This document shows positions 8,249 through 45,220 of a stretch of DNA of 64,000 bases, piece by piece. Where the stretch lies: contig CAJQTG010000003.1 in assembly GCA_905618925.1 (NCBI GenBank), positions 1 through 64,000 of the forward strand, read 5' to 3'. Made by a program: the position numbers and the translations under genes. Below the pieces are notes generated by a model that was not told the DNA's origin, did not search any database, and was given only the letters and a program-made list of their open reading frames with translations. This DNA comes from an uncultured Candidatus Thioglobus sp. (lineage in GTDB: Bacteria; Pseudomonadota; Gammaproteobacteria; PS1; Pseudothioglobaceae). Positions within the stretch are counted from its first letter, which is position 1. Every line of letters begins with the position of its first letter.

Positions 8249-9211
8249 CTAACTACATTGATTTGCAGTAATTACCACAGTATTAACTATCTCATCCACG
8301 CTACAACCTCTAGATAAATCATTAACTGGTTTTGCAAGTCCCTGAAGAATTGGTCCTATTGCTTTGGCGCCTGAGAACCTCTGAACCAGCTTGTAACCTA
8401 TATTTGCAGCATCAAGATTTGGAAAAATTAAGACGTTCGCAGGCGGCGTAAATGGTGTCTCAGGATATTTAATCTTTAAGATTTCTTGGTCTAGCGCGGC
8501 GTCAAGCTGAATGTTGCCTATTATTTGAGCATTTGGAAGCTTAGATTTTAGGATATCGGTTGCATTTTTAACTTTATCAACCTCTGAATGTTTGGCACTT
8601 TGATTTGTTGAAAATGAAAGCATAGCCAACTTAGGCTCTTCCTCTAAAAACAATTTTGCAGTTTCATAAGCACTATTAGCAATTTCTGCAAGCTCTTCAG
8701 AGTTTGGATTAATATTCATTGCACAATCTGAAAAAATCATATTTTCACCATACATTTTGTGATTCTGATCAAACGCCATTAAAAACAAGCTCGATACAAG
8801 TTTGCTGTCTTCATAAACGCCAATAATTCGTAGTGCATTACTAAGTACCTCTTGACTTGGAGTTATAGCTCCCGTGACAACGCCATCAACATCACCTCTA
8901 TATAAGGCAATCATTGCAAATACATTTGGATTTGATAGCATTTCAAGAGCAACTTCTAAAGTAATACCTTTATGTCTTCTTCTTTCAAATAAGGTTTGGG
9001 CATACTCGGCCTTCAAATCTTCGTTTTCACGGTTTATTGTCTCTATACCAAGAGAAGTGTCTGCATTTGTATCAAAAAGAACAATTTGAGCAATTTTTTG
9101 ACTTGTAAGGATTTGCGCCGCCTCTAGGACTCGAGAGTCACTAGATTCAGGTAATAAGATTCGTGGGAATTTAGCTTTAGCCTTGTTGGATAAATCTTCT
9201 AATAACGCCAT
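8249..9211 (-). CDS. pta: Phosphate acetyltransferase (short PTA_PTB type)
   Basis: ILLPESSDSRVLEAA N-terminus, SSLFLMAF, FSDCAMNINPN, ANVLIFPNLDAANIGYKL, GPILQGLAKPVNDLSRG. Confidence 0.9.
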   Translation of the reverse strand: MALLEDLSNKAKAKFPRILLPESSDSRVLEAAQILTSQKIAQIVLFDTNADTSLGIETINRENEDLKAEYAQTLFERRRHKGITLEVALEMLSNPNVFAMIALYRGDVDGVVTGAITPSQEVLSNALRIIGVYEDSKLVSSLFLMAFDQNHKMYGENMIFSDCAMNINPNSEELAEIANSAYETAKLFLEEEPKLAMLSFSTNQSAKHSEVDKVKNATDILKSKLPNAQIIGNIQLDAALDQEILKIKYPETPFTPPANVLIFPNLDAANIGYKLVQRFSGAKAIGPILQGLAKPVNDLSRGCSVDEIVNTVVITANQCS

Positions 9212-9296
9212 TATTTTGCCTTAATTAAGTTCATCATAGTTTACCCGAAAATGCCTTAATTCAATTAAGGCTTAAACTCTAAAACTTAATACTCAA

Positions 9297-12206
9297 TTAG
9301 TTAGGACTATACTGGTTTGCAATTTTAAGACGTTGAATTTTTCCAGATGGACCTTTGGGTAATGGCTCATCAACAAAAATTATTTGACTGGGCGTCTTAT
9401 ATTCTCCAAGATCTGCTTTACAAAGAGCAAGCAATTCCTCTTCATTAGCAATCAAATTATCTTTCAAAAAAACACAAGCTGAAATTTCTTCACCATAGTT
9501 TTCATCTTTAATGCCAAATGTACACGCCTCCAATACGGCATTATGCTTATAAAGCGTGTCATCAATCTCTCTAGGTGATATGTTTTCCCCGCCTTTAATA
9601 ATTAACTCTTTCTTTCTGCCAGTTATAAAAAAGAAGCCGTCCTCATCTTCAACTCCAAGATCACCAGTCAAAAAATAACCATCTTTATTAAAAGCTTTTG
9701 TTGTTGCCTCTTCGTTCTTGAAGTATTCTAAAAGAACATTATCACCCTTAATAACAAGCTCTCCAGCGTTTCCAAAAACTAGGTAATTTCCAGAGTTATC
9801 TATAATTTTAACTTCATTGCCATAAGGTCTTCCTGCAGAGCCATGCTTACATTGATCCATAGGGTTTGAAAGGATTTGAGCTGACGTTTCAGTAAGGCCC
9901 ATTGTTTCAATAATTTTAACATTAAACACTTTTTCAAACTTCTTATGGATCTCCGGAGAAAGAGGTGCTGATGCAGATCTACCAAAGCGAAGATTTTTAA
10001 GATTTAATGAACTTACATCAAAATTATCATTAAGCAAATAATTAATAATTGTAGGAACAACACTAAACCAAGTGCATTTATATTTATCAATAATATTCCA
10101 AAAATTACTAACGCTAAACTTGCTAACAATAACAACACAGCTATTACTTACTAAGGCGCATGCAATGGAAACCATTTCAGCGTTAATATGATAAAGAGGC
10201 AGCACGCAAAAAGACACATCGTCTTTTTTAATTTCATGTGCTAAAGCGGTATTTTTTCCACCAGCTAAAACATTTTTATGTGAAAGGAGAACCCCTTTTG
10301 GTACGCCAGTTGTTCCTGAGGTATAAATCAATACTGCTGGCGTATCTGACAATAAAGTCTTGGTAGTTGAATTAGAAATCTTCTGACTACTAATTTCAAA
10401 GTCATTCGCTTTTTCATGACATGTTACTTGGACATTTGAAGCTTTAAGAGTATCACTGAACTTATCAATATAGATCTTAGAGGCAAGTATTAGCTTGCAC
10501 TCTGAGTGTTCTATTGTGTACTTAATTTGTTTAGCTCCTGCCAGCACATTTAATGGCACAATTGTTATGCCATGATACATTGCCGCAATAAAAAGAAGTG
10601 AAGATGCATAGCCATTATCAAGCATAAATCCAACTTTATCACGCGTATGAATATTGTTTTGCTGAAAAAAGATACCTAGCTTCAAAATATCTTTTTTAAG
10701 TTGGCCATATGAAATATGAAGGTCTAAATCTGCATCAATCAAATAGTTTTTATTTGGCGTAGTTTCTGCAAATTGATTAACCAGCTCTGTAATAGTAGAA
10801 GGCGTTAATGAATATTTTTCCCAGTAACTAGAAAAGATATCATCTTCAGAGGGCTCATCAGCTTTAATGGTCTTAACTATTTTGGTTATATTTAGGTAGT
10901 GCTTATAGTTTAAGTTTTCATCTGTAATATTATTACCCCATGTTCCACAGCCCATCGATAATGAAAATGGAAGCCCATTATCAAAGTTACCGCCAGTTGC
11001 AAAACAATGTGCTTGATTTACTATAATTCTACAGACAGGCAGCTCATTTCCAAGCCTCAAAATATTGTCTTTATTTTCACTATGGATACTGCAAGAATGT
11101 CCTTTACCTTGGTTCTCAAGAATGGTCGTTGCAATTTCAACGGCATGATCAAAATTTTTGGCTCTATAAACTGCTAAAACAGGTGAAAGTTTTTCCATTG
11201 AAAATGGGTGGTCATTACCAACATTTTCTTCTTCAACCATAAGGAATTTAGAGTTCACATGTTGCCCACTAAGACCTGCTATGGAGGCAATTTCATTAGA
11301 TTTTTTTGCAATTATATTTCGGTTTATGACGCCTTCTTTGCTCCACATATTTTTTTCAAGGATGACTTTTTCCTTTGAATTTAACAATGAACCACCCTCT
11401 TTTTTAAGTGATTTAATTAGTCCATCATAAATACTATCAAGAACAATAATACTGTTCTCAGAAGAGCAACTTGTTGCATTATCAAAAGTCTTTGAAGTCA
11501 TAATTTTGTGAGATGCGTCATCTAAATTGGCGCTATCGTCTACTATTGCAGGAACGTTGCCAACTCCAACACCTAGCGTTGGGGTACCGCTTTGTAATGC
11601 TCTTTGAATATTATTTTGTGATCCAGTTGCCACAATTAAATCAACAAGTTTTGATAATTCGCTCGTATCATCTTTGCTTATTGGTTCAGGCAATGATTGA
11701 ACGATATTTTTAGGTGCCCCAATACGCTGAAGGGCTTTTTGCATCAGTTCGACTACTTTACTGCAAATAAATGCACCTTTTGGTGATGGCGCCAATATGA
11801 TTGCATTTCTACATTTAAGTGCATTAATTGTTTTATTTAAGGGAGTTGCAATAGGGTTTGTTGAGGGCACAATTGCGCCAACCACCCCTACCGGCCTGGC
11901 AATCTCAGTTAGGCCTTTTTTAATATCTTGATTAATAACTCCAACAGTTTTAACGCTTTTTAAATCTCTAAGGAGTCCAATAGTTTTTCGTCGATTTTTT
12001 CTCATCTTGTCTTCAACATTTCCAAGACCAGTATGTTTTACTGCCATCTCAGAAAGTTCTTGATTATTTTCAGGCTGAATTACTTCCCAGGCAACTGCCA
12101 GGATTAATTCATCAATCTGTTCTTGAGAGTAATCATTAATAATTGATTGTGCTTTTTTTGCCTCAATGACAATACTTTCTATGGATGATTTTTGTTTAAT
12201 AGTCAT
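9297..12206 (-). CDS. Fusion protein: N-terminal CoA-acylating aldehyde dehydrogenase (sulfoacetaldehyde dehydrogenase/EutE-like) plus C-terminal AMP-forming acyl-CoA ligase
   Basis: N-half: PVGVVGAIVPSTNPIATP, FDNATSCSSENSIIV with catalytic Cys. C-half: VLIYTSGTTGVPKGVLLSHKN, TMGLTETSAQ, YFLTGDLG, GRKKELIIKGGENISPREID, PKGPSGKIQR. Continuous 969-aa ORF; junction near aa 450-470. Confidence 0.9.
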   Translation of the reverse strand: MTIKQKSSIESIVIEAKKAQSIINDYSQEQIDELILAVAWEVIQPENNQELSEMAVKHTGLGNVEDKMRKNRRKTIGLLRDLKSVKTVGVINQDIKKGLTEIARPVGVVGAIVPSTNPIATPLNKTINALKCRNAIILAPSPKGAFICSKVVELMQKALQRIGAPKNIVQSLPEPISKDDTSELSKLVDLIVATGSQNNIQRALQSGTPTLGVGVGNVPAIVDDSANLDDASHKIMTSKTFDNATSCSSENSIIVLDSIYDGLIKSLKKEGGSLLNSKEKVILEKNMWSKEGVINRNIIAKKSNEIASIAGLSGQHVNSKFLMVEEENVGNDHPFSMEKLSPVLAVYRAKNFDHAVEIATTILENQGKGHSCSIHSENKDNILRLGNELPVCRIIVNQAHCFATGGNFDNGLPFSLSMGCGTWGNNITDENLNYKHYLNITKIVKTIKADEPSEDDIFSSYWEKYSLTPSTITELVNQFAETTPNKNYLIDADLDLHISYGQLKKDILKLGIFFQQNNIHTRDKVGFMLDNGYASSLLFIAAMYHGITIVPLNVLAGAKQIKYTIEHSECKLILASKIYIDKFSDTLKASNVQVTCHEKANDFEISSQKISNSTTKTLLSDTPAVLIYTSGTTGVPKGVLLSHKNVLAGGKNTALAHEIKKDDVSFCVLPLYHINAEMVSIACALVSNSCVVIVSKFSVSNFWNIIDKYKCTWFSVVPTIINYLLNDNFDVSSLNLKNLRFGRSASAPLSPEIHKKFEKVFNVKIIETMGLTETSAQILSNPMDQCKHGSAGRPYGNEVKIIDNSGNYLVFGNAGELVIKGDNVLLEYFKNEEATTKAFNKDGYFLTGDLGVEDEDGFFFITGRKKELIIKGGENISPREIDDTLYKHNAVLEACTFGIKDENYGEEISACVFLKDNLIANEEELLALCKADLGEYKTPSQIIFVDEPLPKGPSGKIQRLKIANQYSPN

Positions 12207-12231
12207 TACTTATTTATATGTGTTATAGGAA

Positions 12232-12264
12232 TTTACTGGAGAGCTTTAATAGCCCTCCAGTAAA
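12232..12264. other. Stem-loop between tctC and fusion gene
   Basis: TTTACTGGAG (12232-12241) pairs with CTCCAGTAAA (12255-12264); no strong T-tract, so possible attenuator or processing site rather than a classical terminator. Confidence 0.45.
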
Positions 12265-12286
12265 AAATATTTCAGCAAATTTTACT

Positions 12287-13246
12287 TTACTTCAGGCCCG
12301 CTAGGAGTTCGGTAAGATAAGCCTGTCTTTCATTCCACATGGTAATAACTTCGTCTCTAGACATCACTCTTGATGGTGAGTTAGTAGACTTCATTTTTCC
12401 TTGTGTTTTCTTATCATTAAACATTGCAGGAACTTTGCTCGCAAGGTAATCTACAACATCTTGAGGTGTTCCAGAAGGAACCATTAGCCCACGGAAATTG
12501 ACACTTGAATCGTCAACGTCAACACCGCTTTCCATAAGTGTAGGAACATCAGGTAAATACGCATGTCTTGTAAGGTCTGCAACAGCTAGTATTTTAAGAT
12601 CAGCTGCGCTTCTTGCAGAGTCAGAAAGATTATTAAAACCAGCAACTGTTTCACCAGCCTTAACCATTCTAAGAGCATCTACACCACCCGAAGCAGGAAT
12701 ATAAGTTAGATTTGCACCAGATGCTTTTGCAAACTGCAAGAAAGCAATATGATGTCCAACAAATTTTCCAGCGCCACTAATTGTAACAGCACCTGGATTT
12801 GCTTCAGCGTGAGCAAGCAGTTCCCCTACCGTATTAAATGGACTATCTTTACCAACAATTAAGACTGCAGGATCTGCACCCCAATTTCCAAGAGGTTCAA
12901 GGTTGTTGATGTTGTACTTAGTATCAAAAACAATAGACTGTGCTATAAAGTGTGGAACATTATAAGCACCAAGCATGTAGCCATCTTGTGAAGCCTCACC
13001 TGCAAACCAATTCCAACCTGTTCTTCCACCAGCACCTGGCTTATTTAGGATGTAGATTGGCTGACCAATAAGCGCCTCTTTACCTGAGGCAAGTGTTGCA
13101 ATTCTAGCTTGGAAATCTGTCGCTCCACCAGGTCCATAAGCTACCATTACGCCAATTGGCTTTTCAGGGTAATCAGCCTGAGCTGGCAATAACATCATAG
13201 ATGCTACAGCCAACAAGGCCACTTTAGTTATATTAATAATTTTCAT
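12287..13246 (-). CDS. Tripartite tricarboxylate transporter substrate-binding protein (TctC family)
   Basis: Signal peptide, YPEKPIGVMVAYGPGGATDFQAR, ILNKPGAGGRTGWNW. Confidence 0.9.
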   Translation of the reverse strand: MKIINITKVALLAVASMMLLPAQADYPEKPIGVMVAYGPGGATDFQARIATLASGKEALIGQPIYILNKPGAGGRTGWNWFAGEASQDGYMLGAYNVPHFIAQSIVFDTKYNINNLEPLGNWGADPAVLIVGKDSPFNTVGELLAHAEANPGAVTISGAGKFVGHHIAFLQFAKASGANLTYIPASGGVDALRMVKAGETVAGFNNLSDSARSAADLKILAVADLTRHAYLPDVPTLMESGVDVDDSSVNFRGLMVPSGTPQDVVDYLASKVPAMFNDKKTQGKMKSTNSPSRVMSRDEVITMWNERQAYLTELLAGLK

Positions 13247-13262
13247 TTTTTCTCCTTTTTTG

Positions 13263-13694
13263 TTAAAACAAACCTTCTGGTGTATGAACTTTTAAAAGTA
13301 GTGTAAACAATCCATATAGTGCAAAAGTAAACACAAATGCGACACCCAATTTTATGAGTAACACACGCCAAAAGTCTTTTGATTCCGTAGGCTTGGTGTA
13401 GTACATTACAAGCGTAAAGAATACGATCATTGAGGCTAAGTAGAAGCCCAGTATTTTTAGTAGTAAGATAAATGCTGAAGCGATTGCTATGCCTGGCATT
13501 AAATCTTTGAAATTAGTTGATTTGTCAGCCTCACCCTTCTCAAACCAAAGCATTATCGTTAAGATAGCAATAGTTGCAGATATGAGTCTTGGAAATAGAT
13601 AGTTCTCTGAATCACCTAAAATAAATGATGAATAAACTAGAATGGCACTAACTAGTGTAACAATAACGGTTGATATTTTTATTTGACTATTCAT
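13263..13694 (-). CDS. Tripartite tricarboxylate transporter small membrane subunit (TctB family)
   Basis: About 143 aa with 4 predicted TM segments, between tctC and tctA homologs. Confidence 0.85.
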   Translation of the reverse strand: MNSQIKISTVIVTLVSAILVYSSFILGDSENYLFPRLISATIAILTIMLWFEKGEADKSTNFKDLMPGIAIASAFILLLKILGFYLASMIVFFTLVMYYTKPTESKDFWRVLLIKLGVAFVFTFALYGLFTLLLKVHTPEGLF

Positions 13695-15184
13695 GCTTTG
13701 ATTTTTTTAGATTTTCTACTGGAATATACTCCGTACACAATGGAAGCAATACATAGCGAAATTAAAACAATATTTATTGTTCCTGACGTAAAGTGTTGAA
13801 AAGAGCTTCCTTTTGCGTTTCCTATAAGGTTACCAAGTAGAAATTTTTCCTCTGTCATTGTTCCTAGTATTAAGCCTAATACAACTGGAACTGGGCTAAA
13901 TCCAGCTTTACTTCCAAAATACATTAGAGTTCCCAATGTAAACATAATCAAAACATCAGAATAGTTATTTTGAATGCTATAAGTTCCAAATACAGCTAGT
14001 AATAAAATACCAACTGCCATATAGTTATCAGGCACTTTCATAATCCATTTACTATGTCTACTAAGGAATAAACCAATAATCAACATTAGAATTTGTGCGA
14101 TTATTAGTGAATCAATAAAAGTCCATATAACTTCAGGGTTTTTAGTAAATATATCGTGCCCTGGGAATATCCCATGAATTAATAATCCGCCTAGTAGAAC
14201 TGCAGCAGTAGGACTGCCGGGAATACTTAAAGTAAGAAGTGGAATTAGAGAAGGGCCAACCATAGAATTGTTAGCACTCTCAGCAGCAATAATTGCTTCA
14301 GGCTCTCCTTTTCCATAATTTTCCCTATTTGAGCTTACTTTTTTAGATTGGTCATAAGCAACAATGCCTGCAATCTGTCCACCCGCACCTGGAATAATTC
14401 CAATTATTGAGCCAATAATAGATCCAATTGATAAAGCTTTAAGTTTGCTAAAAACAAGTTTAAAAGATTGAATCAATGTTGCATCACCAGTAGCTGAAAA
14501 AACTCGGTTCTTCTTAGCATAAAAATTCTCTAAAAGATTCCAGACTTGAGGCATTGCGAATAAACCAATTAACCCAACCACAATATGAACGCCACTTTCA
14601 AGATGATCTGTAAAAACAAACCTTTCAACTGCATTTGTAGGGTGCTCTCCAATTGTTGCAAGCATTAATCCAAATAGTCCTGATAATAAGCCTTTAATGA
14701 CTGATTTTGAGTCCAGAGTCGCAATAATTGTGATACCTAGAATTGCAACCCAAAACATCTCTGTGGACATAAACTTTAATGACAATGCAGCAAGTGGTGG
14801 AGTAAAAAATATGAGAATAAATACTCCAAAAATACCACCAACAAATGAACTAATAAAACAATAATGTAGGGCATTCTTAGCTTTACCGTTCTGCGCCATT
14901 TTATGTCCATCCAATGCAGTTGCAATGTTTGCAGGAGCGCCAGGAACGTTGACAAGTATTGCACTAATTGCACCTCCAGCAACAGTTGCTGTGTACATAG
15001 CGCCAAGTAATATCAGCCCACTTTCGGGCTTCATATGAAATGTAAATGGAATAAGAAGTGCAACAGACATTGTTGGACTTAATCCTGGAAGTGCTCCAAG
15101 AATAATACCGGCAAAAGTCCCTCCTACCAGAAGAGCAATATGATAAACAGTGAAGACATTATCAAAGTAGTTTAAAAATTCCAT
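13691..15184 (-). CDS. Tripartite tricarboxylate transporter large permease (TctA family)
   Basis: GTFAGIILGALPGLSPTMSVALLIPFTF and IPGAGGQIAGIVAYDQSKK motifs. Confidence 0.93.
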   Translation of the reverse strand: MEFLNYFDNVFTVYHIALLVGGTFAGIILGALPGLSPTMSVALLIPFTFHMKPESGLILLGAMYTATVAGGAISAILVNVPGAPANIATALDGHKMAQNGKAKNALHYCFISSFVGGIFGVFILIFFTPPLAALSLKFMSTEMFWVAILGITIIATLDSKSVIKGLLSGLFGLMLATIGEHPTNAVERFVFTDHLESGVHIVVGLIGLFAMPQVWNLLENFYAKKNRVFSATGDATLIQSFKLVFSKLKALSIGSIIGSIIGIIPGAGGQIAGIVAYDQSKKVSSNRENYGKGEPEAIIAAESANNSMVGPSLIPLLTLSIPGSPTAAVLLGGLLIHGIFPGHDIFTKNPEVIWTFIDSLIIAQILMLIIGLFLSRHSKWIMKVPDNYMAVGILLLAVFGTYSIQNNYSDVLIMFTLGTLMYFGSKAGFSPVPVVLGLILGTMTEEKFLLGNLIGNAKGSSFQHFTSGTINIVLISLCIASIVYGVYSSRKSKKIKA

Positions 15185-15217
15185 TGCATATCCAATTTAA
15201 TAAAAACATACATTTAT

Positions 15218-15255
15218 TCATATATATGTCTAATGAAACTCATATATATGTGTAA
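15218..15255. promoter_or_regulatory. Two phased 16-bp repeats with CATATATATG palindromic cores; candidate operator for the adjacent GntR regulator
   Basis: TCATATATATGTCTAA (15218-15233) and TCATATATATGTGTAA (15240-15255), 22 bp apart, in the divergent tctA/gntR intergenic region. Confidence 0.6.
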
Positions 15256-15379: not shown

Positions 15380-16102
15380 ATGAATAAAAAGCTATACCAA
15401 ACTGTTATAGATTATATAAATATTCAAATAAGCAGTGGTAAGCTGACCATTGGTGATTTAATTCCATCTGAGTCGCAACTTTCTAAATTACTTAACGTAA
15501 GTGTTGGTACTGTCAGAAAAGCTATTGACAAACTTGAGCATAATAAAGTTCTTTATCGTCATCATGGTAAGGGAACTTATATATCTGACTATGGATTTGA
15601 TAATAGTATTTTTAATTTCTTTAGTTATGGAAACCAGACTGGGTCATCAATTCGAATATACAAAACCACACCTATCAGAAAAAAAGTTAAAGCGACCTCT
15701 GAGATTTCATTTCAATTAGGTATAAATCAAGCTGATGATGTTATTTATCTAGAGAGAAGAGGATATATTGATAAAAAAAATCCTATTATTATTGAAAAAT
15801 CTTGGTGGGTTGCTGACGTTGTAGAAGGACTTCAAAAGCCTTCACTTCATATACCTGATCTTCTTTATGCTGTTATTTTTAAAGAGTTTGATACTCAAAT
15901 TAACTCTTCTCAAGAAGTTTTGACTGCAGGCATTGCAGATGATGAAACTGCAAAAATTCTTCATATCAATAAAGGCGATCCAGTTGTAATATTAAATCGT
16001 CACTCCTATGCAAAAGATAAAGGGCTCGTTGAGTTCCGAATTACAACAGGAAGAGCGGATATGTTCAGTTATACCACTACAATTGGAACACCTCAGCCTT
16101 AA
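15380..16102 (+). CDS. GntR/HutC-family transcriptional regulator
   Basis: N-terminal wHTH (LIPSESQLSKLLNVSVGTVRKAIDKLEHNKVLYRHHGKGTYI) plus UTRA domain. Confidence 0.92.
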   Translation: MNKKLYQTVIDYINIQISSGKLTIGDLIPSESQLSKLLNVSVGTVRKAIDKLEHNKVLYRHHGKGTYISDYGFDNSIFNFFSYGNQTGSSIRIYKTTPIRKKVKATSEISFQLGINQADDVIYLERRGYIDKKNPIIIEKSWWVADVVEGLQKPSLHIPDLLYAVIFKEFDTQINSSQEVLTAGIADDETAKILHINKGDPVVILNRHSYAKDKGLVEFRITTGRADMFSYTTTIGTPQP

Positions 16103-16173: not shown

Positions 16174-16899
16174 ATGTCAAATGACTTCAAAAAAGAACGC
16201 ACTGATCTTGCAGCAGCTTTTCGCTGGGCTGCAAGGCTAAACATGCATGAAGCCGTTGCAAATCATTTCAGTTTAGCAGTTTCAGAAGATGGTTCAAAAT
16301 TTCTTCTAAACCCTATTGGAATGCACTTCTCACAGATTTGTGCAAGCGACCTTATCCTAGTTGATTCAAAAGATGAATCTACAATGTCTAAGCCAAATGC
16401 TCCAGATCCAACAGCCTGGGCAATACACGGCGCTTTGCATAGAAATAATCCGCAAGCAAGATGCATCCTTCACGTCCATCCTAAGTACGCAACCATCTTG
16501 TCTTGTTTAGAAGATAAAACCATGAAGCCGATTGATCAAAACACTATGCGCTTTTATGAAAAAGTATCGATAGATTATGAATATAGTGGTATGGGTCTTG
16601 GCAAAGAAGCGGAGAGATTAAGCACTATATTAGGGGATAACTCGGTAATGTTAATGGGTAACCATGGTGTTCTAACTGCTGCAAAAACAGTTGCTAAAGC
16701 GTTTGATGACCTTTTTTATTTTGAGAGATCCTGTGAAACACTGATTGGGGCCTACCAAACAGGAAAAGCATTACACCAAGTCTCACGCGAGATTGCTATA
16801 AAAACTGCAGCGCAATGGCAAAAATATGACGCATCGGATATGCATTTTGATGCTTTGAAAAGAATTTTAGATAAGGAAGAAGCAGACTATAAAAATTAG
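16174..16899 (+). CDS. Class II aldolase/adducin family protein
   Basis: NHFSLAVSEDG, HGALHRNNPQARCILHVHPKYATILS, LMGNHGVLTAAKTVAKAFDDLFYFE. Confidence 0.88.
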   Translation: MSNDFKKERTDLAAAFRWAARLNMHEAVANHFSLAVSEDGSKFLLNPIGMHFSQICASDLILVDSKDESTMSKPNAPDPTAWAIHGALHRNNPQARCILHVHPKYATILSCLEDKTMKPIDQNTMRFYEKVSIDYEYSGMGLGKEAERLSTILGDNSVMLMGNHGVLTAAKTVAKAFDDLFYFERSCETLIGAYQTGKALHQVSREIAIKTAAQWQKYDASDMHFDALKRILDKEEADYKN

Positions 16900-16939
16900 A
16901 TTTGCTTAATAGTGTTATTTTTTTTGATAAGGAGCTTTA

Positions 16940-18187
16940 ATGCCAAGTAATAATATCTCATTAGACGTCGATTACGTCAAAGCACAATTCCCAGCCTTTA
17001 ATGATCCAAAAAGTTCAAAATGGTCATTCTTTGAAAATGCTGGTGGAAGCTATGTTCCTACCAACGTTATTGAGCACTTAAATCATTTTATGACGTCTAC
17101 AAAAGTTCAGCCATACGCTGAATTTGATACCTCCGCCATTGCTGGTGACAATATGGATCAAGCCACCAAGCTTTTTGCTGAAATGATTAATGCAAAGACA
17201 GATGAAATAATTATAGGCGGCTCGACAACGATGAATATGTACGTATTATCCAATGCAATGAAAAGTCTCCTTAAGCCAGGGGATGAGGTCATCGTTACGA
17301 ACCAGGATCATGAGGCTAACGTTGGTGCATGGCGAAGACTTGCTGAGCATGGCGCCGTAATAAAAGAATGGCAAATTAATACAGACACTGCAGAACTTGA
17401 GATCGATGACCTTAAAGCACTTCTATCAGATAAAACCAAAATTGTTGCTGTTACGCACTGCTCGAATATAGTTGGGTCAATTAATGATTTAAAATCAATT
17501 GCTAAGTTAGTTCATGAGTACGACGCTTATATAGTTGGTGATGGCGTATCCTATGCGCCTCACGGTTTTCCAGACGTAAAGGACCTTGATGTCGATTTTT
17601 ACGCATTTAGTCTTTACAAGACGTTTGGTCCCCATCTTGGGCTTCTTTATGGAAAAAAAGAAATCCTAAGCAAGCTTCCCAATCAAAATCACGAATTCCT
17701 AGAAGGAGACGTTCCTTACACACTTAACCCTGGCGGACCCAACCATGAAGAGCTATCTTGTCTAATAGGTGTTTATGAGTACTTTAATAACTTATATGAG
17801 CATCATTTTCCCGGCAAAGAGGCCTCAACTAGAGAAAAAATTGAAGCTGTTAATGAGTTAATTGCTGTTCACGAAATGGAGATTGCAAACCCACTTCTTG
17901 ATTACATTAACTCTCGAGATGATATTAATCTTATCGGAAAAAACAAAATAGAGAATAAAGATAGAGCACCAACGATTGCCTTTACGATTAAAAACAAATC
18001 CTCAAAAGATGTAAGTAGTGAGCTTGTAAAAAATGGCATAGCAACTAGAAATGATAATTTCTATGCATGGCGATGTTTAAAGGCACTTGGAATTAGTACC
18101 GATGATGGCGTTGTTAGAACAAGTATGGTTCATTACAATACTCATGAGGATGTTAATAAACTGATAAGTGCTTTAAAAAATATTTAG
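16940..18187 (+). CDS. Aminotransferase class V (cysteine desulfurase-like)
   Basis: FFENAGGSYVP, GDEVIVTNQDHEANVGAWRR, DGVSYAPHG, FYAFSLYKTFGPHLGLLYGKKE (PLP Lys). Confidence 0.88.
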   Translation: MPSNNISLDVDYVKAQFPAFNDPKSSKWSFFENAGGSYVPTNVIEHLNHFMTSTKVQPYAEFDTSAIAGDNMDQATKLFAEMINAKTDEIIIGGSTTMNMYVLSNAMKSLLKPGDEVIVTNQDHEANVGAWRRLAEHGAVIKEWQINTDTAELEIDDLKALLSDKTKIVAVTHCSNIVGSINDLKSIAKLVHEYDAYIVGDGVSYAPHGFPDVKDLDVDFYAFSLYKTFGPHLGLLYGKKEILSKLPNQNHEFLEGDVPYTLNPGGPNHEELSCLIGVYEYFNNLYEHHFPGKEASTREKIEAVNELIAVHEMEIANPLLDYINSRDDINLIGKNKIENKDRAPTIAFTIKNKSSKDVSSELVKNGIATRNDNFYAWRCLKALGISTDDGVVRTSMVHYNTHEDVNKLISALKNI

Positions 18188-36838: not shown

Positions 36839-37789
36839 ATGCTTCGAATCACTTTTAGGCAATTACACTACTTTACCATCGTGGCTGAAGAGTTAAATAT
36901 AGCAGCCGCAGCTCGAAAGTTATTTATCTCGCAACCTGCAATAACAAATGCACTGAAATTACTCGAAGAAAACCTTGGCTCTCAATTACTTGTTCGCCAC
37001 CATGCTCGAGGCGTAACTCTTACCAGCGCAGGTAAGGACTTTCTAGTGCGTGCTATAGATTTATTAGCTCAAGCAAATGAACTAGAATTAAGCACTATTG
37101 ATTCAGGCCCATTATTACGTGGCAGATTGGAGGTTGGTTGTTATAGCAGTATTGCACCAATGTATATGCCTCGCTTAATCACAGAATTCTTAAACCTACA
37201 CCCGCAGGTTGATCTGCGTTTACATGAATCAAACCAAGGAGATTTGATAGCTAGTCTAATGCAGGGTGAACTTGATTATGTCATTACACCTAGTAATAAT
37301 TTAGGTCGAAATTTAATACAGAAACCCTTACTAAAACGACACCCCCACATCATATTAGGCTCCGACCATCCATTGACTTCAAAAACCAAAATTCATTTGA
37401 GCGAGCTAGTTGACTACCCCATGGTTTTATTGAACTTTGATTCCAGTCGAAACTATTTTATCGGCCTCTTTCGGTCCCATGGATTAGAGCCTTGGGTAAG
37501 ATATTGGTCACCATCTTTTGAAACTGTAAGAGGTATCGTTGCAAATGGGCTAGGTTATTCTATTTTAGTTACACGACCTAAATCAGATTTTGACTACAAT
37601 GGTCGCCCTTTATTTCTCCGACCTATTGCAGATGATGTTAATACAGATGATATTAGCCTAATAAGTGCTGAAACACGCCGTGCCACAAACTTGATGACAG
37701 CTTTTCAAGAATTTTCTGTAGAACACTTCAAAAAACTAGACAATGCTGAAAAATTATCTACAGATAACCATCACGAGAAAGGTCACTGA
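36839..37789 (+). CDS. LysR-family transcriptional regulator
   Basis: N-terminal HTH FTIVAEELNIAAAARKLFISQPAITNALKLLEENLGSQLLVRHHARGVTLTSAG. Confidence 0.92.
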   Translation: MLRITFRQLHYFTIVAEELNIAAAARKLFISQPAITNALKLLEENLGSQLLVRHHARGVTLTSAGKDFLVRAIDLLAQANELELSTIDSGPLLRGRLEVGCYSSIAPMYMPRLITEFLNLHPQVDLRLHESNQGDLIASLMQGELDYVITPSNNLGRNLIQKPLLKRHPHIILGSDHPLTSKTKIHLSELVDYPMVLLNFDSSRNYFIGLFRSHGLEPWVRYWSPSFETVRGIVANGLGYSILVTRPKSDFDYNGRPLFLRPIADDVNTDDISLISAETRRATNLMTAFQEFSVEHFKKLDNAEKLSTDNHHEKGH

Positions 37790-39146
37790 TAGTCTCAACA
37801 ATACTCTCCCTGAGTATTGCTACTAATTTATCTACCTCCTCTCTTGTCATTATTAAAGGTGGTGATAAAACGTTCATATGTGCTAAAGGTCGAACAATAA
37901 GTCCTCGCTTCTGACAATGGTCCGCTATTCGACTTCCCACTGCAGCATCCTCATGAATTAGTGACTTAGTCTTTTTATCAGCAACATTTTCGATACACAT
38001 CATGAATTTACTACCTCGAACTTCACCTACAATTTCAAGATTTTCTAATGTTTTTAACTGCTTTTCAAAATATACACCAACATCATTAACATGCTCACAG
38101 AGATTTTCCCTTTCCATAATTTCAATATTTTTTAATCCTGCTGCGCAGCAAACTGGATGACCTGAGTATGTAAAGCCATGAGTAAATAAAGCACCTTTGG
38201 CTTGAGGGATACTAATAACATCATAAATCTCATCCGAAAGTATTGTTGCACTTAAAGGAAGATAGCCTGAAGTTAGTCCTTTGGCACAAGTGATAATGTC
38301 TGGTTGTAAATCAAACTCATCTTTGGAAGCAAACATGTGGCCTAATCTCCCAAATGCAGTAACTACCTCATCAGAAACATAGAGTACCTCATATTTATTA
38401 CATACCTCTTGGGTTCGACGATGGTAACCGGGAGGTGGAACAATAACTCCACCTGCTCCCATAATGGGCTCAGCAAAAAATAAAGCAACATTATCTTGTC
38501 CTAGTTCTAGTATCTTATCTTCCAATTCCTGAACCTTGGTATCACAAAAATCCTCCAAGCTCATACCTTTAGCCCGTCGATAGGGGTTTGGACAGCTAAT
38601 ATGATGCACCATTTGCTTATCAATATCAAAACCAATGTGGTCAAACTCAACACCTGTAATTGACATTGCCATATAGGTAGAGCCATGGTAGCCATCAATT
38701 CGACTGATAATTTTTTTCTTGGTTGTTTTCCCTAACTGATTAAAATAAAAGTGAGCAATCCTTACAGCCGAATCATTTGCAACAGAGCCACCACAACCAT
38801 AAAACACATGATTTAAATTACCTGGTGCTAATTCAGCTAGTTTTGCAGCTAAAGCAGCAGCAGGAGGAGTGGTGTGATGACCAAAGGTTGAAAAGTATGG
38901 AATTCTCTTTGCTTGAGTGGCAATAGCATCCGCCATCTCCGCACGTCCATAGCCAATATTGACGCACCAAAGACCGCCAATACCATCTATATATTGCTTC
39001 CCTTCATTATCAGTTAGGGTTATTCCAGAAGCATCAGTTAGTACCATGGAGCCATCATCTTTAAAGGTTGAAAAATCAGTCCATGGATGAATAAAATGAT
39101 CCTTATCTTTCTGCCATATGTTTTTTTTATTTTTGTTCATAATCAA
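37758..39146 (-). CDS. Class III aminotransferase (polyamine/putrescine:pyruvate SpuC-like)
   Basis: GGLWCVNIGYGRAEMADA, FYGCGGSVANDSAVRIAHFY, DEVVTAFGRLGHMFAS, ITCAKGLTSGYLPL; polyamine gene neighbourhood. Confidence 0.87.
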   Translation of the reverse strand: MIMNKNKKNIWQKDKDHFIHPWTDFSTFKDDGSMVLTDASGITLTDNEGKQYIDGIGGLWCVNIGYGRAEMADAIATQAKRIPYFSTFGHHTTPPAAALAAKLAELAPGNLNHVFYGCGGSVANDSAVRIAHFYFNQLGKTTKKKIISRIDGYHGSTYMAMSITGVEFDHIGFDIDKQMVHHISCPNPYRRAKGMSLEDFCDTKVQELEDKILELGQDNVALFFAEPIMGAGGVIVPPPGYHRRTQEVCNKYEVLYVSDEVVTAFGRLGHMFASKDEFDLQPDIITCAKGLTSGYLPLSATILSDEIYDVISIPQAKGALFTHGFTYSGHPVCCAAGLKNIEIMERENLCEHVNDVGVYFEKQLKTLENLEIVGEVRGSKFMMCIENVADKKTKSLIHEDAAVGSRIADHCQKRGLIVRPLAHMNVLSPPLIMTREEVDKLVAILRESIVETISDLSRDGYL

Positions 39147-39164
39147 TCCTCGTAATAGTATTTA

Positions 39165-40649
39165 TTAGTATTCTATCCAACAGGTCTTTAAGCCACTGTA
39201 TTTATCAAATGAATGGAGAGATAAGTCACGTCCATTTCCTGATTGTTTAAAGCCACCAAATGGTGTTAGAGGGCTTAACTTATCACAAGCATTAACCGAT
39301 ACCGTTCCTGCAACTAGTGCGTCAGATACTCGTAAAGCCTGGGAAAGATCATCTGTCCAAACGGACGCTGCCAAACCGTAGATAGAGTTATTTGCCATTT
39401 CAATAGCCTCAGACTCTCCACTGAAGCTCATTACCGAAGCCACAGGTCCAAAAATCTCCTCTTGGGCAATAACATGATGAGGTTGAACTTCAATAATTGT
39501 TGGCTCAAGGTAGCAGTTACTTTCGTTAATATTGAGTCGCTTACCTCCGCAATAAAGTTTACCTTGAGCAATTCCTTTTTCAACGTAGTCCATCACTTTA
39601 TTCGCATGCTCAACAGTTACAAGAGCACCAGCTTTTGATGCTGGGTTTAGTGGATAACTTGGATGCCAATCTTGCGCATGTTTTTTTAAAAGTGTTAAAA
39701 ATTCATTCTTGATACTCGCTTCTACTAAAATTCTTGAGTTAGCACTACAGACTTCACCTTGATTAAAGAATATACCAAAAGCGGAAGCTGCAGCAGCAGC
39801 ATCTAAGTTTTTACAATTAGCAAAGATTAAATTAGGACTCTTGCCACCACATTCTAGCCAAATTTGTTTCATATTTGATTGGCCTGAATACTGCAAGAAA
39901 TATTTACCAACCTCGGTAGAGCCTGTAAAGGCAACACAATCAACATCCATATGAAGTCCTAACGCCTTCCCAGCATCGTGTCCAAGCCCTGTCACAACAT
40001 TAAGAACGCCATCCGGCAAGCCTGCTTTAGTTGCCAATTGGGCTAATCGAATCGCAGTAAATGAGGATTGTTCTGCTGGCTTTAATACTACTGAGTTTCC
40101 AACTGCCAAAGCGGGGGCACATTTCCAAATAGCCATGTCCAAAGGGAAGTTCCATGGCACAACTGCTCCAACAACGCCTAGCGGTTCCCGCCTGATCATA
40201 GCCAAACTACCACGGCCAGTTGGGGCAACTTCATCATATAGTTTATCAATTGCCTCAGCATGCCAGCGAAGAATCGCAGCAGCACCTGGAACATCAATTG
40301 TTAAAGCGTCAGTAATTGGCTTACCGGTATTAAGACTTTCTAGTAAAGCAAGCTCCTCAGTATTATTATCTATCAAATTGGCTAGTTCTATCAATGTTGC
40401 TTTTCTGTCTGAAGGGGAGGCATTGGCCCATACTCCAGAGTTAAAAGCAGCTCTACCTGCAGAAACTGCAGCATTCACATCTGATAAAGATCCTGCTGCA
40501 GTCTTAGTCATAACTTTACCAGTGGCAGGATTGATTGAATCAAACGTCGAGCCATTTTTAGCATCAACTGCTTTACCATTAATCCAGAAGTGATTAGGAA
40601 GATCAATCTCTAAAACTTTTGCCTCCCATTGTTTCTGACTGATATTCAT
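39165..40649 (-). CDS. NAD(P)-dependent aldehyde dehydrogenase (aminoaldehyde/gamma-Glu-GABA-aldehyde type)
   Basis: GVVGAVVPWNFPLDMAIWK, WLECGGKSPNLIFANCK, FFNQGEVCSANSR, PFGGFKQSGNGRD. Confidence 0.9.
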   Translation of the reverse strand: MNISQKQWEAKVLEIDLPNHFWINGKAVDAKNGSTFDSINPATGKVMTKTAAGSLSDVNAAVSAGRAAFNSGVWANASPSDRKATLIELANLIDNNTEELALLESLNTGKPITDALTIDVPGAAAILRWHAEAIDKLYDEVAPTGRGSLAMIRREPLGVVGAVVPWNFPLDMAIWKCAPALAVGNSVVLKPAEQSSFTAIRLAQLATKAGLPDGVLNVVTGLGHDAGKALGLHMDVDCVAFTGSTEVGKYFLQYSGQSNMKQIWLECGGKSPNLIFANCKNLDAAAAASAFGIFFNQGEVCSANSRILVEASIKNEFLTLLKKHAQDWHPSYPLNPASKAGALVTVEHANKVMDYVEKGIAQGKLYCGGKRLNINESNCYLEPTIIEVQPHHVIAQEEIFGPVASVMSFSGESEAIEMANNSIYGLAASVWTDDLSQALRVSDALVAGTVSVNACDKLSPLTPFGGFKQSGNGRDLSLHSFDKYSGLKTCWIEY

Positions 40650-40748
40650 TTTCTATTACTCCTATTTTAAATTAGTTATTAAGCACAACTTATGCCTGAA
40701 AGTTCCTATATCTATATTATGTTAAAAAGTCATAATAAACAATTCTAT

Positions 40749-41777
40749 CTACCCTTCAAAACCTTGAAGAACATTAACAACATTAATACCTATCTCCTCA
40801 ACTGCATAACCACCTTCCATAACAAACAAGGTTGGTAAGCCAAGTTTGGCAATCCTTTGGCCATAATCACTAAAATCATCACACTGTAATCGAAAAAAAG
40901 AAATTGGGTCATTTTCATAAGTATCTACCCCCAACGAAACAATTAGAGCATCCGCTTGATAGTCTTTAATTTTTAAGAGCGCGATATCTAAAGCCTGAGA
41001 CCAGACAGTATAGGATGTTTTTGGCGGCATTGAATAATTGAAATTGTAGCCCAAACCTTTACCCTCTCCCAATTCATCATTACCGCCAAGAAAGTAAGGA
41101 AAAGCATCCATGGGATCGCCATGAAGAGAGCAAAACATAACATCATCACGGTCATAGAAAATAGACTGGGTGCCATTGCCATGATGAAAATCAACATCCA
41201 ATATCGCTACTTTTTTGGCGCCGTTGTCAAGCAAAAACTGTGCTGAAACCGCTGCATTATTAACAAAACAATAGCCACCAAACATGTCAGCTGCAGCATG
41301 GTGTCCAGGAGGTCTACACAGTGAAAATGCAGAGGCACTTCCTTTATTAATCCTTTCTGCGCCAGTCAATGCAACATCAGCAGCAAGATAAGATGCTTCC
41401 CAAGTGCCCTTTGAAATTGATGTTTCTGATGCCAAACAATAATACCCAATGCGTCCATCAATTTCTCTCGGCGGCACATTTCTAGTTAATCTTTTTGATG
41501 GCGATGTCGTTGCAATCGCCTCCCCTAGATAGCCTGCACCCTTCCAATCAATCCAACAATTTTCCAAAAAATCTAAGTAACCTTCACTATGGATCCTCAA
41601 GAGAGGTTCTTTACCAAAACGTTTAGGCAAAATGATTTCTCCAAAATGACGTTTTGTTATCTCGTCAATAACAAATTCTACACGCACTGGGCACTCAAAA
41701 GGTGGCACCAACTCACCACCAAATAACTCTGTTTTGGAGTCTCTTAAAATGTGTTCCTTACTATAAATAGTTTTCAT
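40749..41777 (-). CDS. Histone deacetylase family, probable acetylpolyamine amidohydrolase
   Basis: CRPPGHHAAADMFGGYCFVNNAAV, VAILDVDFHHGNGTQSIFY, SLGVDTYENDP. Confidence 0.88.
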   Translation of the reverse strand: MKTIYSKEHILRDSKTELFGGELVPPFECPVRVEFVIDEITKRHFGEIILPKRFGKEPLLRIHSEGYLDFLENCWIDWKGAGYLGEAIATTSPSKRLTRNVPPREIDGRIGYYCLASETSISKGTWEASYLAADVALTGAERINKGSASAFSLCRPPGHHAAADMFGGYCFVNNAAVSAQFLLDNGAKKVAILDVDFHHGNGTQSIFYDRDDVMFCSLHGDPMDAFPYFLGGNDELGEGKGLGYNFNYSMPPKTSYTVWSQALDIALLKIKDYQADALIVSLGVDTYENDPISFFRLQCDDFSDYGQRIAKLGLPTLFVMEGGYAVEEIGINVVNVLQGFEG

Positions 41778-41789
41778 AGATAATTTTCC

Positions 41790-43016
41790 TCAGTTAATTA
41801 CAGAGCTTTCTAAAACTGCATTTAGCAAAACATTTGCCCCTGCTTGAGCATTTTCAGGTGAAATACTTTCGGCTTCATTATGACTTAGACCACCTTTACA
41901 AGGAATAAAAATCATCCCTACTGGTGCAACATATGAAATTTGGCAAGCATCATGTCCAGCACCAGAAACTATATTTTGATAACTGTAACCTAATTTTTCA
42001 GTTGCGATTTTCACTTTTGAAATACAGCTCTTATTAAATGATATTGCTGGCGAGTACCAAATATTATTTAACTCACTTTTCAGATTCTCTCTGGCACATA
42101 CTTCATCAATCAAACTCTTAAATTTTTGCTGCATTATTTTTAAAATTGCGTCCTCAGGATGCCTTAAATCTACAGTAAAAAGCACCTTGTTTGCAACAGA
42201 ATTTATTGACGCTGGTTGAGACTCAATGCCTCCAACAGTATATAAAGAGCTCTTTTGTTCTTTAATTATTTCTTGCAACCCCTTAACAATCTGAATCATT
42301 CCAGAAACAGGATCTTTACGATAGTTCATGGGGGTAGTTCCTGCATGAGCACTTTGACCATTAAGAGTAACATGACTCCAGGAAATTCCTTGAGCACCCG
42401 TAACAACACCAATAGTTTTATTTTCTAACTCCAGTACTGGCCCTTGCTCAATATGCAACTCATAATATGCCTCAATTGGAAAAGATTTACAAGCTTCGCT
42501 TCCTAGTTGATCACTATTATGTAACGCCTGTTCAACGCTAACACCGTTGTTATCTTTGTGCAAAAAAATTTCTGATTGCTTAAAAACTCCAGAAAATACT
42601 CCAGAACCCATCATGGCAGGGGAAAATCTTACGCCTTCTTCATTTGTCCAAACGACAACTTCCAACGGATGTTCAGTTTTAATATTATTTTCTTCCAATA
42701 CTCGCAACACTTCAATTGCACCAAGTACGCCTAAAACACCATCAAATCTTCCACCACAAGGCTGAGTGTCCAAATGACTTCCCATAAGGACTGGTGCTTT
42801 GCCATTATTACCTTCACGCCTTATAAATAGATTACCCATGGAGTCTAATCGATGACTACAATTTAATTGAGCAGCCCAACTCTTTAGTAAGTTACGACCC
42901 TCTATGTCAGCATCAGTCAAGGCCAATCTACAAGATCCACCATTGTCTCCAGGGCCAATTTCTGCCATTTTTGTCAAAGATTGCCAGAGACGATTTTTAT
43001 TTACTTTTAGATTCAT
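41790..43016 (-). CDS. Zn-dependent amidase/hydantoinase (M20; N-carbamoyl-amino acid hydrolase/allantoate amidohydrolase family)
   Basis: MGSHLDTQPCGGRFDGVLGVLGAIEVL, WTNEEGVRFSPAMMGSGVF, ELHIEQGPVLE, SGAGHDA. Confidence 0.88.
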   Translation of the reverse strand: MNLKVNKNRLWQSLTKMAEIGPGDNGGSCRLALTDADIEGRNLLKSWAAQLNCSHRLDSMGNLFIRREGNNGKAPVLMGSHLDTQPCGGRFDGVLGVLGAIEVLRVLEENNIKTEHPLEVVVWTNEEGVRFSPAMMGSGVFSGVFKQSEIFLHKDNNGVSVEQALHNSDQLGSEACKSFPIEAYYELHIEQGPVLELENKTIGVVTGAQGISWSHVTLNGQSAHAGTTPMNYRKDPVSGMIQIVKGLQEIIKEQKSSLYTVGGIESQPASINSVANKVLFTVDLRHPEDAILKIMQQKFKSLIDEVCARENLKSELNNIWYSPAISFNKSCISKVKIATEKLGYSYQNIVSGAGHDACQISYVAPVGMIFIPCKGGLSHNEAESISPENAQAGANVLLNAVLESSVIN

Positions 43017-43238
43017 TATTATTTATTGTTGACTTTTTTTTCTTAGCTAGTCTAGTGCCGACTAAAAAGTTAAAATTGATCAAAAAAAATACTCAAATTT
43101 ATTAGATACATAAATGTCCCACCAACACTCAAAACACTAAAGAGAGCATCAGTGGGTCACAATTAAACAACGATCATTTGCCTGTCTCATGAGCCATTTA
43201 AACCAGCACATCAAGAAATGATCGTTTTTAACCTAAAG

Positions 43239-44282
43239 TTACTTCATCATTTCAGTCCAAATACCCGAGTAGAGCTTATTGACTTCAGCCGAGCACATTT
43301 CGATAAAACGACCGTTAGGAAGATGCTCTGCAGGAATTTGAACCTCAGGTGCAGTTGCTAAAATTTCAAGCATAAACTCACTTGAACCTTTAATGCCGTT
43401 TGCATACATTGCAAAATTAGACGCTATAGCAGCACTTTCAGGCTCCATCATAAAGTTCTGGAACAGCTTAGCATTCTCAACATTTTGCGCATCTTTTAAA
43501 ACGACAACACTATCCATCCATAAGACATAGCCTTCTTTAGGGTAGCCGTAATGAACAGAAGGAGTTTCTTGTCTTGTGCGCATTGCATCACCATTCCAAT
43601 AGACAGAAGCTGCAATATCACCACTAGCAAATGGCTCTTTGATTCCATAGGTCATCGAAACCCACTTTGGTTTTGCAGCCATTAGAACATCACGTGCTTT
43701 TTTCAACGCAGCTTTATCATCAGTACAAGGCTCACTTCCAACGTAGTAAAGCGCCATACCAATAATATCCCCCATTTCAGGAGCTACATTAATTTTTCCC
43801 ACTAATTCTTCTGGCGGATCAAAGGCAATAGCTGATGTGTTAATGTCACCTGAATACACATCAGTATTAACCACCATACCCACACTACCCCACTGATATG
43901 GAACTGAGTAATGTCTGCCTGGGTCCCAGTCTGGGTTAGTCCACTCAGGTAATACATTTTTGAAATTACTCATCTGATCCGGACGGGTTTTAAGCAACAA
44001 GCCCTCACTAATCCAAATTGGCATATAGTTTGCTGAAGGAATGGCAATGTCAAACCCGTGTCCACCCGCTTTAACTTTCGCTAAAGCAGTATCATTTGAA
44101 TCATAGTCTGTAATTGTCACCGTAACATTATAAGTTTCCTCAAACTTAGTTACAAGCTCTGGGCTGGTGTAATCACCCCAGTTATAAATATTTAACTCTC
44201 CCGCTGCAGATACGCTTTGACTTACAAAAAGCATACTTGCCGCAACAGAGCTAATAATAATTGAGTTTTTTAATTGTCTCAT
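43239..44282 (-). CDS. Polyamine ABC transporter substrate-binding protein (PotD/PotF family)
   Basis: Signal peptide; LNIYNWGDYTSPELVTKFEETYNV; VPYQWGSVGMVVNTDVY. Confidence 0.9.
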   Translation of the reverse strand: MRQLKNSIIISSVAASMLFVSQSVSAAGELNIYNWGDYTSPELVTKFEETYNVTVTITDYDSNDTALAKVKAGGHGFDIAIPSANYMPIWISEGLLLKTRPDQMSNFKNVLPEWTNPDWDPGRHYSVPYQWGSVGMVVNTDVYSGDINTSAIAFDPPEELVGKINVAPEMGDIIGMALYYVGSEPCTDDKAALKKARDVLMAAKPKWVSMTYGIKEPFASGDIAASVYWNGDAMRTRQETPSVHYGYPKEGYVLWMDSVVVLKDAQNVENAKLFQNFMMEPESAAIASNFAMYANGIKGSSEFMLEILATAPEVQIPAEHLPNGRFIEMCSAEVNKLYSGIWTEMMK

Positions 44283-44361
44283 GATTTATTTCTCCTTTTT
44301 TCTACTAATAAAATGAACAACCAACAAACCGTTTAAAATAAAAATTATCAGTTATTCTCCC

Positions 44362-44393
44362 TTTCTCACTTTCTCACTTTCTCACTTTCTCAC
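44362..44393. repeat. Four perfect tandem copies of an 8-bp unit (TTTCTCAC)
   Basis: (TTTCTCAC)x4 directly seen, lying 2 bp from the potI-like stop codon, between potI- and potF-like genes. Confidence 0.95.
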
Positions 44394-44395
44394 AT

Positions 44396-45220
44396 CTACT
44401 TTTTGCTGCTGATTAGGAACGTCATTCCTACCAATAAGATTGAAACTACAAAAAGAACGCTTGAAATCGCATTAATCTCGGGTGTAACCTCCCGCCTTAA
44501 CTCACCCAGCATATAGGTTGGTAAAGTATCTTTGCCGGGTGTTTTTACAAATTCAGTTATAACTACGTCATCTAACGAAATGACAAACGCCAACATCGCG
44601 CCAGCTAAAATTCCGGGGAACAGTAATGGAAAAGTCACTCGCTTAAAAGTACGCCATGGGCTGGCATATAAATCAGCAGCCGCATTCTCTAGGGATAGGT
44701 TCATGTTTTCAAGTCTCGCACGAATAGGCAAGTAGGAAAACGGAATACAAAAAGCTGTATGGGCCAAGACTAAATATGCAGTGCCTTGATAACCTGTAGC
44801 AGCTTTGATAGAAGCAAAGAAAATCAACAGAGCAACAGCTGTGACTATTTCAGGCACCATTATGGGTTGATTGATAACTGCATAAATCAATCCCTGACCT
44901 CGATACTTTGGCACGCGAGTTGTAGCTAGTGCCGCCATTGTTGCCAGAATAGTACTGTAGACAGAAGCTTGTAAAGCAAGACCAAGTGAGCGAAGGGTTA
45001 CTTCTTGAACTCTTTCATTATTCCATGCTGCTTCGTACCACTGCCATGAGAAGCCATGCCAGACAGTGAGCAATGTTGAGTCATTAAAAGAGTAGAAAAG
45101 TAATGGAACCATTGGTGCGTATAAGCAAAGTATACAAATGAGTGCTAGTACTGGAAAACTTGGCACATACTCCACATTAAAGCGGTCCCTGTTGCGTTTT
45201 TTTAAAAAATTAATGTGCAT
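44396..45220 (-). CDS. Polyamine ABC transporter permease (PotC/PotI family)
   Basis: Six TM; EAAADLYASPWRTFKRVTFPLLFPGILAGAMLAFVISLDDVVITEF. Confidence 0.92.
   Translation of the reverse strand: MHINFLKKRNRDRFNVEYVPSFPVLALICILCLYAPMVPLLFYSFNDSTLLTVWHGFSWQWYEAAWNNERVQEVTLRSLGLALQASVYSTILATMAALATTRVPKYRGQGLIYAVINQPIMVPEIVTAVALLIFFASIKAATGYQGTAYLVLAHTAFCIPFSYLPIRARLENMNLSLENAAADLYASPWRTFKRVTFPLLFPGILAGAMLAFVISLDDVVITEFVKTPGKDTLPTYMLGELRREVTPEINAISSVLFVVSILLVGMTFLISSKK

Follow-up and report, generated by a model that had tools for sequence, protein, structure and literature searches.

A predicted sulfoacetate operon with a fused SauS-SauT enzyme, operators common to sulfite-oxidation genes and exchange between Pseudothioglobus species

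The genes tctA-tctB-tctC-fusion-pta, which occupy positions 8249-15184 on the minus strand of a contig from an uncultured Candidatus Thioglobus, very probably form an operon for the import and activation of sulfoacetate that depends on an xsc gene located elsewhere, shares its operator with other genes and is exchanged as an allele (a probability of about 0.8 is given to this reading). The stretch analysed, hereafter the window, comprises 64,000 nucleotides (contig C3) of a 1.25 Mb assembly that is 70% complete, and its closest named relatives are MAGs of the SUP05 cluster and of Pseudothioglobus, with 94-99% identity in the fusion. The original prediction, made from the letters of the window, had proposed the import and assimilation of sulfoacetate or a related carboxylate; a SauS score above the cut-off and the co-occurrence with xsc lend support to sulfoacetate. 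Three points go beyond that prediction and are the most surprising, namely the operator in common with sulfite oxidation, the swapping of alleles and the regulator-enzyme chimeras.

The predicted route begins in the periplasm, where TctC would capture sulfoacetate for import by TctAB. The ligase half of the fusion would convert it to sulfoacetyl-CoA, with ATP split into AMP and PPi, and the SauS half would reduce this to sulfoacetaldehyde; the fusion perhaps hands over the labile thioester between its halves. Xsc, encoded at another locus and common to taurine degradation, would then yield acetyl phosphate and sulfite, of which the former would pass through the operon's Pta to acetyl-CoA and the latter would either leave the cell or be oxidised by AprBA-Sat, or by SoeABC in one relative. 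In a literature search no paper tied Thioglobus or Pseudothioglobus to sulfoacetate. The route would extend sulfoacetate use to Pseudothioglobus, a genus known from ocean metagenomes.

The operon and its fused enzyme

All five ORFs were confirmed in the order and at the coordinates first proposed. The large membrane subunit gene tctA (13691-15184, 497 aa; PF01970, 439 bits) overlaps by 4 bp the small membrane subunit gene tctB (13263-13694, 143 aa; PF07331, 48 bits), which is followed after 16 bp by tctC (12287-13246, 319 aa; PF03401, 109 bits), encoding the periplasmic substrate-binding protein of a TTT transporter. The three genes stand together and all three profiles exceed their cut-offs. 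The complete SauS-SauT fusion ORF (9297-12206, 969 aa) begins 80 bp further on, and another 85 bp separate it from pta (8249-9211, 320 aa), a phosphate acetyltransferase gene that matches TIGR00651 with 338 bits against a cut-off of 311.

The N-terminal half of the fusion (aa 6-465; 10812-12191, minus strand) is an acylating sulfoacetaldehyde dehydrogenase of the SauS family, which covers positions 3-462 of the 464 in model NF047625 and scores 694 bits against a curated cut-off of 600. Its catalytic Cys247, in KTFDNATSCSSENS, aligns with the conserved cysteine of the solved acylating dehydrogenases 5j78 and 8cei. The C-terminal half (aa 469-967; 9306-10802) is a SauT-like domain, assigned as an AMP-forming sulfoacetate-CoA ligase, in which the AMP-binding profiles PF00501 and PF13193 extend over aa 478-956 and both the ATP-binding motif YTSGTTG (aa 628) and the catalytic Lys956 are present. 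No curated SauT model matched this half, and its nearest PDB relatives are oxalate-CoA ligases. The fusion recurs as an uninterrupted ORF of 967-986 aa, 68-99% identical, in 11 further genomes from the genus and a sister genus, and hence it is real and not a sequencing error.

Two samples were searched, which may overlap, with 369 genomes from the class and 399 from the phylum, and within them SauS-SauT fusions were confined to Thioglobaceae; none of the 20 above-cut-off SauS proteins outside the family was fused, their open frames measuring 472-541 aa. In 14 of these 20 outside genomes tctABC lies directly 5' of unfused sauS-sauT, and relatives of TctC adjoin sauS in other families. The gammaproteobacterium G113 (L075) carries unfused sauS and sauT that overlap by 4 bp (ATGA), whose separate proteins are 56% (dehydrogenase) and 51% (ligase) identical to the halves of the fusion; an overlapping pair of this type is a plausible ancestor of the fusion. 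Like the operon with its Xsc, the G113 cluster tctABC-sauS-sauT-xsc-pta unites all five functions, with xsc and pta adjacent to the other genes, but it keeps sauS and sauT separate, includes xsc and has no adjoining GntR gene. In G011 a SauS-like gene (38% identical, 435 bits and thus below the cut-off, beside a broken acetolactate-synthase-like gene) was considered as a second sulfoacetate locus and rejected.

The gap between tctC and the fusion holds a predicted RNA hairpin (12232-12264, minus strand; z = -4.5), which recurred in all seven relatives folded, its stem sequence having diverged in the more distant ones. It probably sets the ratio of TctC to enzyme, with more binding protein than enzyme.

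The sauSTU genes of Cupriavidus necator H16 were reportedly described by Weinitschke and colleagues in 2010. The two systems are alike in SauS, an AMP-forming SauT, a divergent regulator gene and an Xsc encoded elsewhere (partly after PMC12625764), whereas the window has a TTT transporter in place of the MFS protein SauU, a fused SauS and SauT, and pta within the operon. In Bilophila wadsworthia, whose TTT transporter is named SauXYZ, a TTT transporter likewise accompanies SauS, but the ligase SauCD is ADP-forming where that of the window is AMP-forming, and the isethionate route stands where Xsc is inferred here (PMC12625764). Hybrid clusters of sauST with a TTT transporter are known from Arctic sponge symbionts, again with SauS and an AMP-forming SauT; a fusion is unmentioned there, while the present locus belongs to Pseudothioglobus, carries pta in the operon and has operators common to sat-aprMBA (PMC12625764). 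The combination of TTT and SauST is therefore known already, and the fusion is the variant, within the searches made. A single polypeptide of this kind would be convenient for biochemistry.

xsc in trans and the identity of the substrate

The absence of xsc from the window, noted in the original prediction, was confirmed, and a profile search of the whole assembly did not find it either. The only sizeable match to the xsc model, at 314 bits, was rejected as a biosynthetic acetolactate synthase adjoining ilvN. Of the two explanations offered at the outset, that xsc is encoded elsewhere or that the substrate differs, the former is borne out in the relatives. A gene for Xsc (1004-1023 bits, cut-off 676) is present in each of the 11 other genomes with a full fusion, among them G006 (one contig, 99% complete), G010 (97%) and G002 (91%), and also in two more whose fusion is truncated at a contig end. 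Complete or near-complete carriers of the locus do have xsc, so that the genomic refutation named with the original prediction, carriers that lack it, did not materialise. Genomes outside the family have xsc in 20/20 cases when SauS scores above the cut-off, in 0/8 when its homologues are weaker and in 1/35 when there is none (Fisher p = 1.6e-15, a value that ignores the relatedness between genomes). Above-cut-off SauS thus predicts xsc across the phylum. That xsc is not adjacent in the window holds true, but there is nothing unusual in it, as many genomes with SauS keep xsc elsewhere.

A comparison of neighbourhoods places xsc 10-13 kb from the operon, on the side of the transporter genes, in G008, G022 and G027, as well as in G017, where a contig end cuts the fusion; the glyoxylate-shunt genes for isocitrate lyase and malate synthase G lie between. 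In the subclade of the window xsc is farther away; G024 carries it on the contig of the operon at a distance of 105 kb. In G001, G026 and G042 pta adjoins or is near xsc with no sau operon between them, which suggests that the operon is placed between xsc and its pta.

The SauS score, the co-occurrence with xsc (11/11 and 20/20), the kinship of the ligase with oxalate-CoA ligases and the unfused clusters together lead to the sulfoacetate reading. A different small acid (malonate, oxalate, succinate or glycolate, for example) could in principle be converted to its CoA ester and semialdehyde, with Pta serving an unrelated step. Acylating aldehyde dehydrogenases and AMP-forming ligases belong to promiscuous superfamilies, the closest structures solved belong to acetaldehyde, succinate-semialdehyde and oxalate/malonate enzymes, and TTT transporters carry many carboxylates. 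Against this stand the presence of xsc with SauS above the cut-off and its absence with sub-cut-off relatives, the linkage of pta to xsc in relatives, and an operator common to the sulfite-oxidation genes; a different acid is considered unlikely.

Just as improbable is the loss of xsc in the lineage of the window, which would leave the operon a relic or put it to another use. The entire 12-kb taurine/xsc block (xsc-ald-tpa-mocR-tau) is missing from the assembly, and the site adjoining glcB differs in content on contig C26. However, gaps are to be expected in an assembly that is 70% complete and fragmented relative to the xsc neighbourhood of G024, with contig C31 ending inside that region before xsc and C26 containing an inverted junction, and an xsc of this genome may lie in such a gap. 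Against a relic, too, stand the intact operon and its recent exchange as a unit. The junction on C26 (L098:1-7633) lies in an aceK-like gene by malate synthase G (glcB), and beyond it stand TRAP-transporter genes where relatives, including G024, have xsc; it resembles a chimera from assembly or amplification, or else a rearrangement. The reduction of sulfoacetaldehyde to isethionate instead of cleavage by Xsc, at least in this genome, has the Bilophila wadsworthia precedent (PMC12625764) and the unseen xsc in its favour, but is highly improbable given that every other carrier has xsc, that pta in the operon fits acetyl phosphate best and that the sulfite-oxidation genes of relatives bear the same operator.

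A predicted regulator and operators common to sulfite oxidation

The sau unit includes a divergent gene that the original prediction had left out, a SauR-like gntR (15380-16102, plus strand; PF00392, 61 bits; PF07702, 78 bits) encoding a GntR-UTRA regulator, for which we infer repression and an effector. It adjoins the operon wherever the contig extends that far. Alignment of the 195-bp gntR-tctA gap across relatives revealed the palindrome ACTCATATATATGAGT, which is present in the window as operator 1 (ACTCATATATATGTGT, 15238-15253) and, 22 bp from it, operator 2 (ATTCATATATATGTCT, 15216-15231). The consensus occurs at every related sau locus examined with 0-2 mismatches, mostly paired, and the pair is conserved in relatives. 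A weak, operator-like third site lies directly upstream of the fusion (12208-12223) with 3 mismatches in the window and 2 in G010. In the unrelated genome G126, a GntR protein with 47-48% identity stands beside an unfused tctABC-sauST-xsc cluster; the palindrome is found there too, as is a 2-mismatch site in the gap corresponding to that of the third.

A scan of 10 whole genomes placed operators with 0-1 mismatch exclusively at the sau or the sat operon, against a chance expectation of about 0.03 per genome; in the six genomes with both loci assembled, such sites occur only before these two. The second location is the promoter in front of sat-aprM-aprB-aprA, with the genes for ATP sulfurylase and APS reductase. 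Sulfite-handling genes were among those to be sought beyond the window according to the original prediction, and sat-aprMBA, with the sau operon's predicted operator, is indeed present in most relatives; sat was not found in the 70% complete assembly of the window. The operator stands upstream of sat in 17/21 Thioglobaceae with the gene, for example at L161:6669, L162:6487, L163:6165, L164:6378, L165:6521 and L166:6049, where genes for an AzlC-like permease and a SulP transporter are divergent. The exceptions are G010 and G042, which have the operon and no sat site, and G028 and G032, which have neither the site nor a GntR ortholog; in G026 the sat operator is present, yet no GntR relative was found.

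ACTCATATATATGAGT hence seems to be an operator common to the sau operon and the sulfite-oxidation genes, to which GntR-UTRA would bind in both places, coupling uptake to sulfite disposal. Such a candidate switch would join organosulfonate uptake to sulfite oxidation. Control of xsc by this regulator is improbable, since the loci read had no operator near the xsc-tpa block, except for one 3-mismatch site in G042. SoeABC was rejected as the general sulfite oxidase, being found in G001 and partly in G026, both without the fusion. In G001, which lacks sat, SoeABC-like sulfite dehydrogenase genes lie between pta and xsc (L086:4395-8986, plus strand) and may provide an alternative route of sulfite oxidation.

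Probable exchange of the operon, and regulator-enzyme chimeras

The window and G024 are 99.4% identical over a block at about 9.0-16.5 kb (99.2-99.8% per gene), with flanks at 88-96% and other shared regions of the two genomes at 92-94%. At 4-fold sites 0-3% differ inside the tract and 14-20% outside, and the borders of the tract fall close to the limits of the sau operon and gntR. The operon is patchily distributed on an ETF-QO tree, its presence changing at least 3 times on supported branches and 5 times by parsimony; G024, for example, has it and its sister species G016 does not. The tract and this distribution are taken to mean that the entire operon and its regulator were recently exchanged by homologous recombination between Pseudothioglobus species, through which the sulfoacetate trait would move as one allele. 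Contamination between the assemblies is a possible source of the identity, but it would not leave the edges of the tract within contigs in each assembly.

Five Pseudothioglobus genomes that lack the sau operon encode a 315-aa protein in which the first 69 residues of GntR are fused to a class II aldolase (L206:1501-2448 and L210:1501-2448, plus strand; L207:760-1707, L208:760-1707 and L209:760-1707, minus strand). The helix-turn-helix (HTH) part is 68-77% identical to GntR with a conserved recognition helix, and the aldolase is the counterpart of a separate gene of the window (16174-16899, plus strand), a class II aldolase/adducin family member matching the PRK07490 profile. Opposite the chimeric gene stands pta, and the operator recurs in the gap between the two. 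Likewise, the DNA-binding domain of GntR is fused to Pta in G018 (405 aa; L205:1501-2718, plus strand), and a second HTH-Pta case (L214:1-1188, minus strand) lies on the short contig C46 of G042, probably a contaminant. In the HTH part of the chimeras pN is well below pS, and dN/dS is mostly 0.09-0.20 (one pair 0.31; some comparisons are saturated), which indicates purifying selection. The chimeras of each type group together in a weakly supported HTH tree. AlphaFold models were poor, owing to shallow alignments, and confident for the chimera HTH alone. A literature search found no matching paper on such chimeras.

A tentative explanation, put at slightly under even odds, is that a single operator set (the sau operon or pta, together with sat-aprMBA) is served by interchangeable regulators whose alleles are swapped by recombination: GntR-UTRA where the sulfoacetate operon is present, and HTH-aldolase (five genomes) or HTH-Pta (one or two) where the operon is missing. 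In the chimeras the enzyme domain would mediate dimerisation and sense a metabolite, which would place sulfite oxidation and the use of acetyl phosphate under the direct control of a metabolic enzyme. If this is true, these proteins would be natural cases in which an enzyme stands in for a ligand-sensing domain.

In the subclade of the window, the aldolase downstream of gntR is followed by a class V aminotransferase gene (TIGR01976, cysteine desulfurase-like; the two span 16174-18187, plus strand), and the pair possibly represents another sulfonate step. Elsewhere in the window, a polyamine-type block (37758-47296, minus strand) includes a class III aminotransferase (PRK07036), a PuuC-like aldehyde dehydrogenase and a PotABCD-like ABC transporter, and a 1211-aa ORF (49832-53467, minus strand) combines in one the alpha and beta subunits of a caprolactamase/acetophenone-carboxylase-like enzyme of the hydantoinase/oxoprolinase type.
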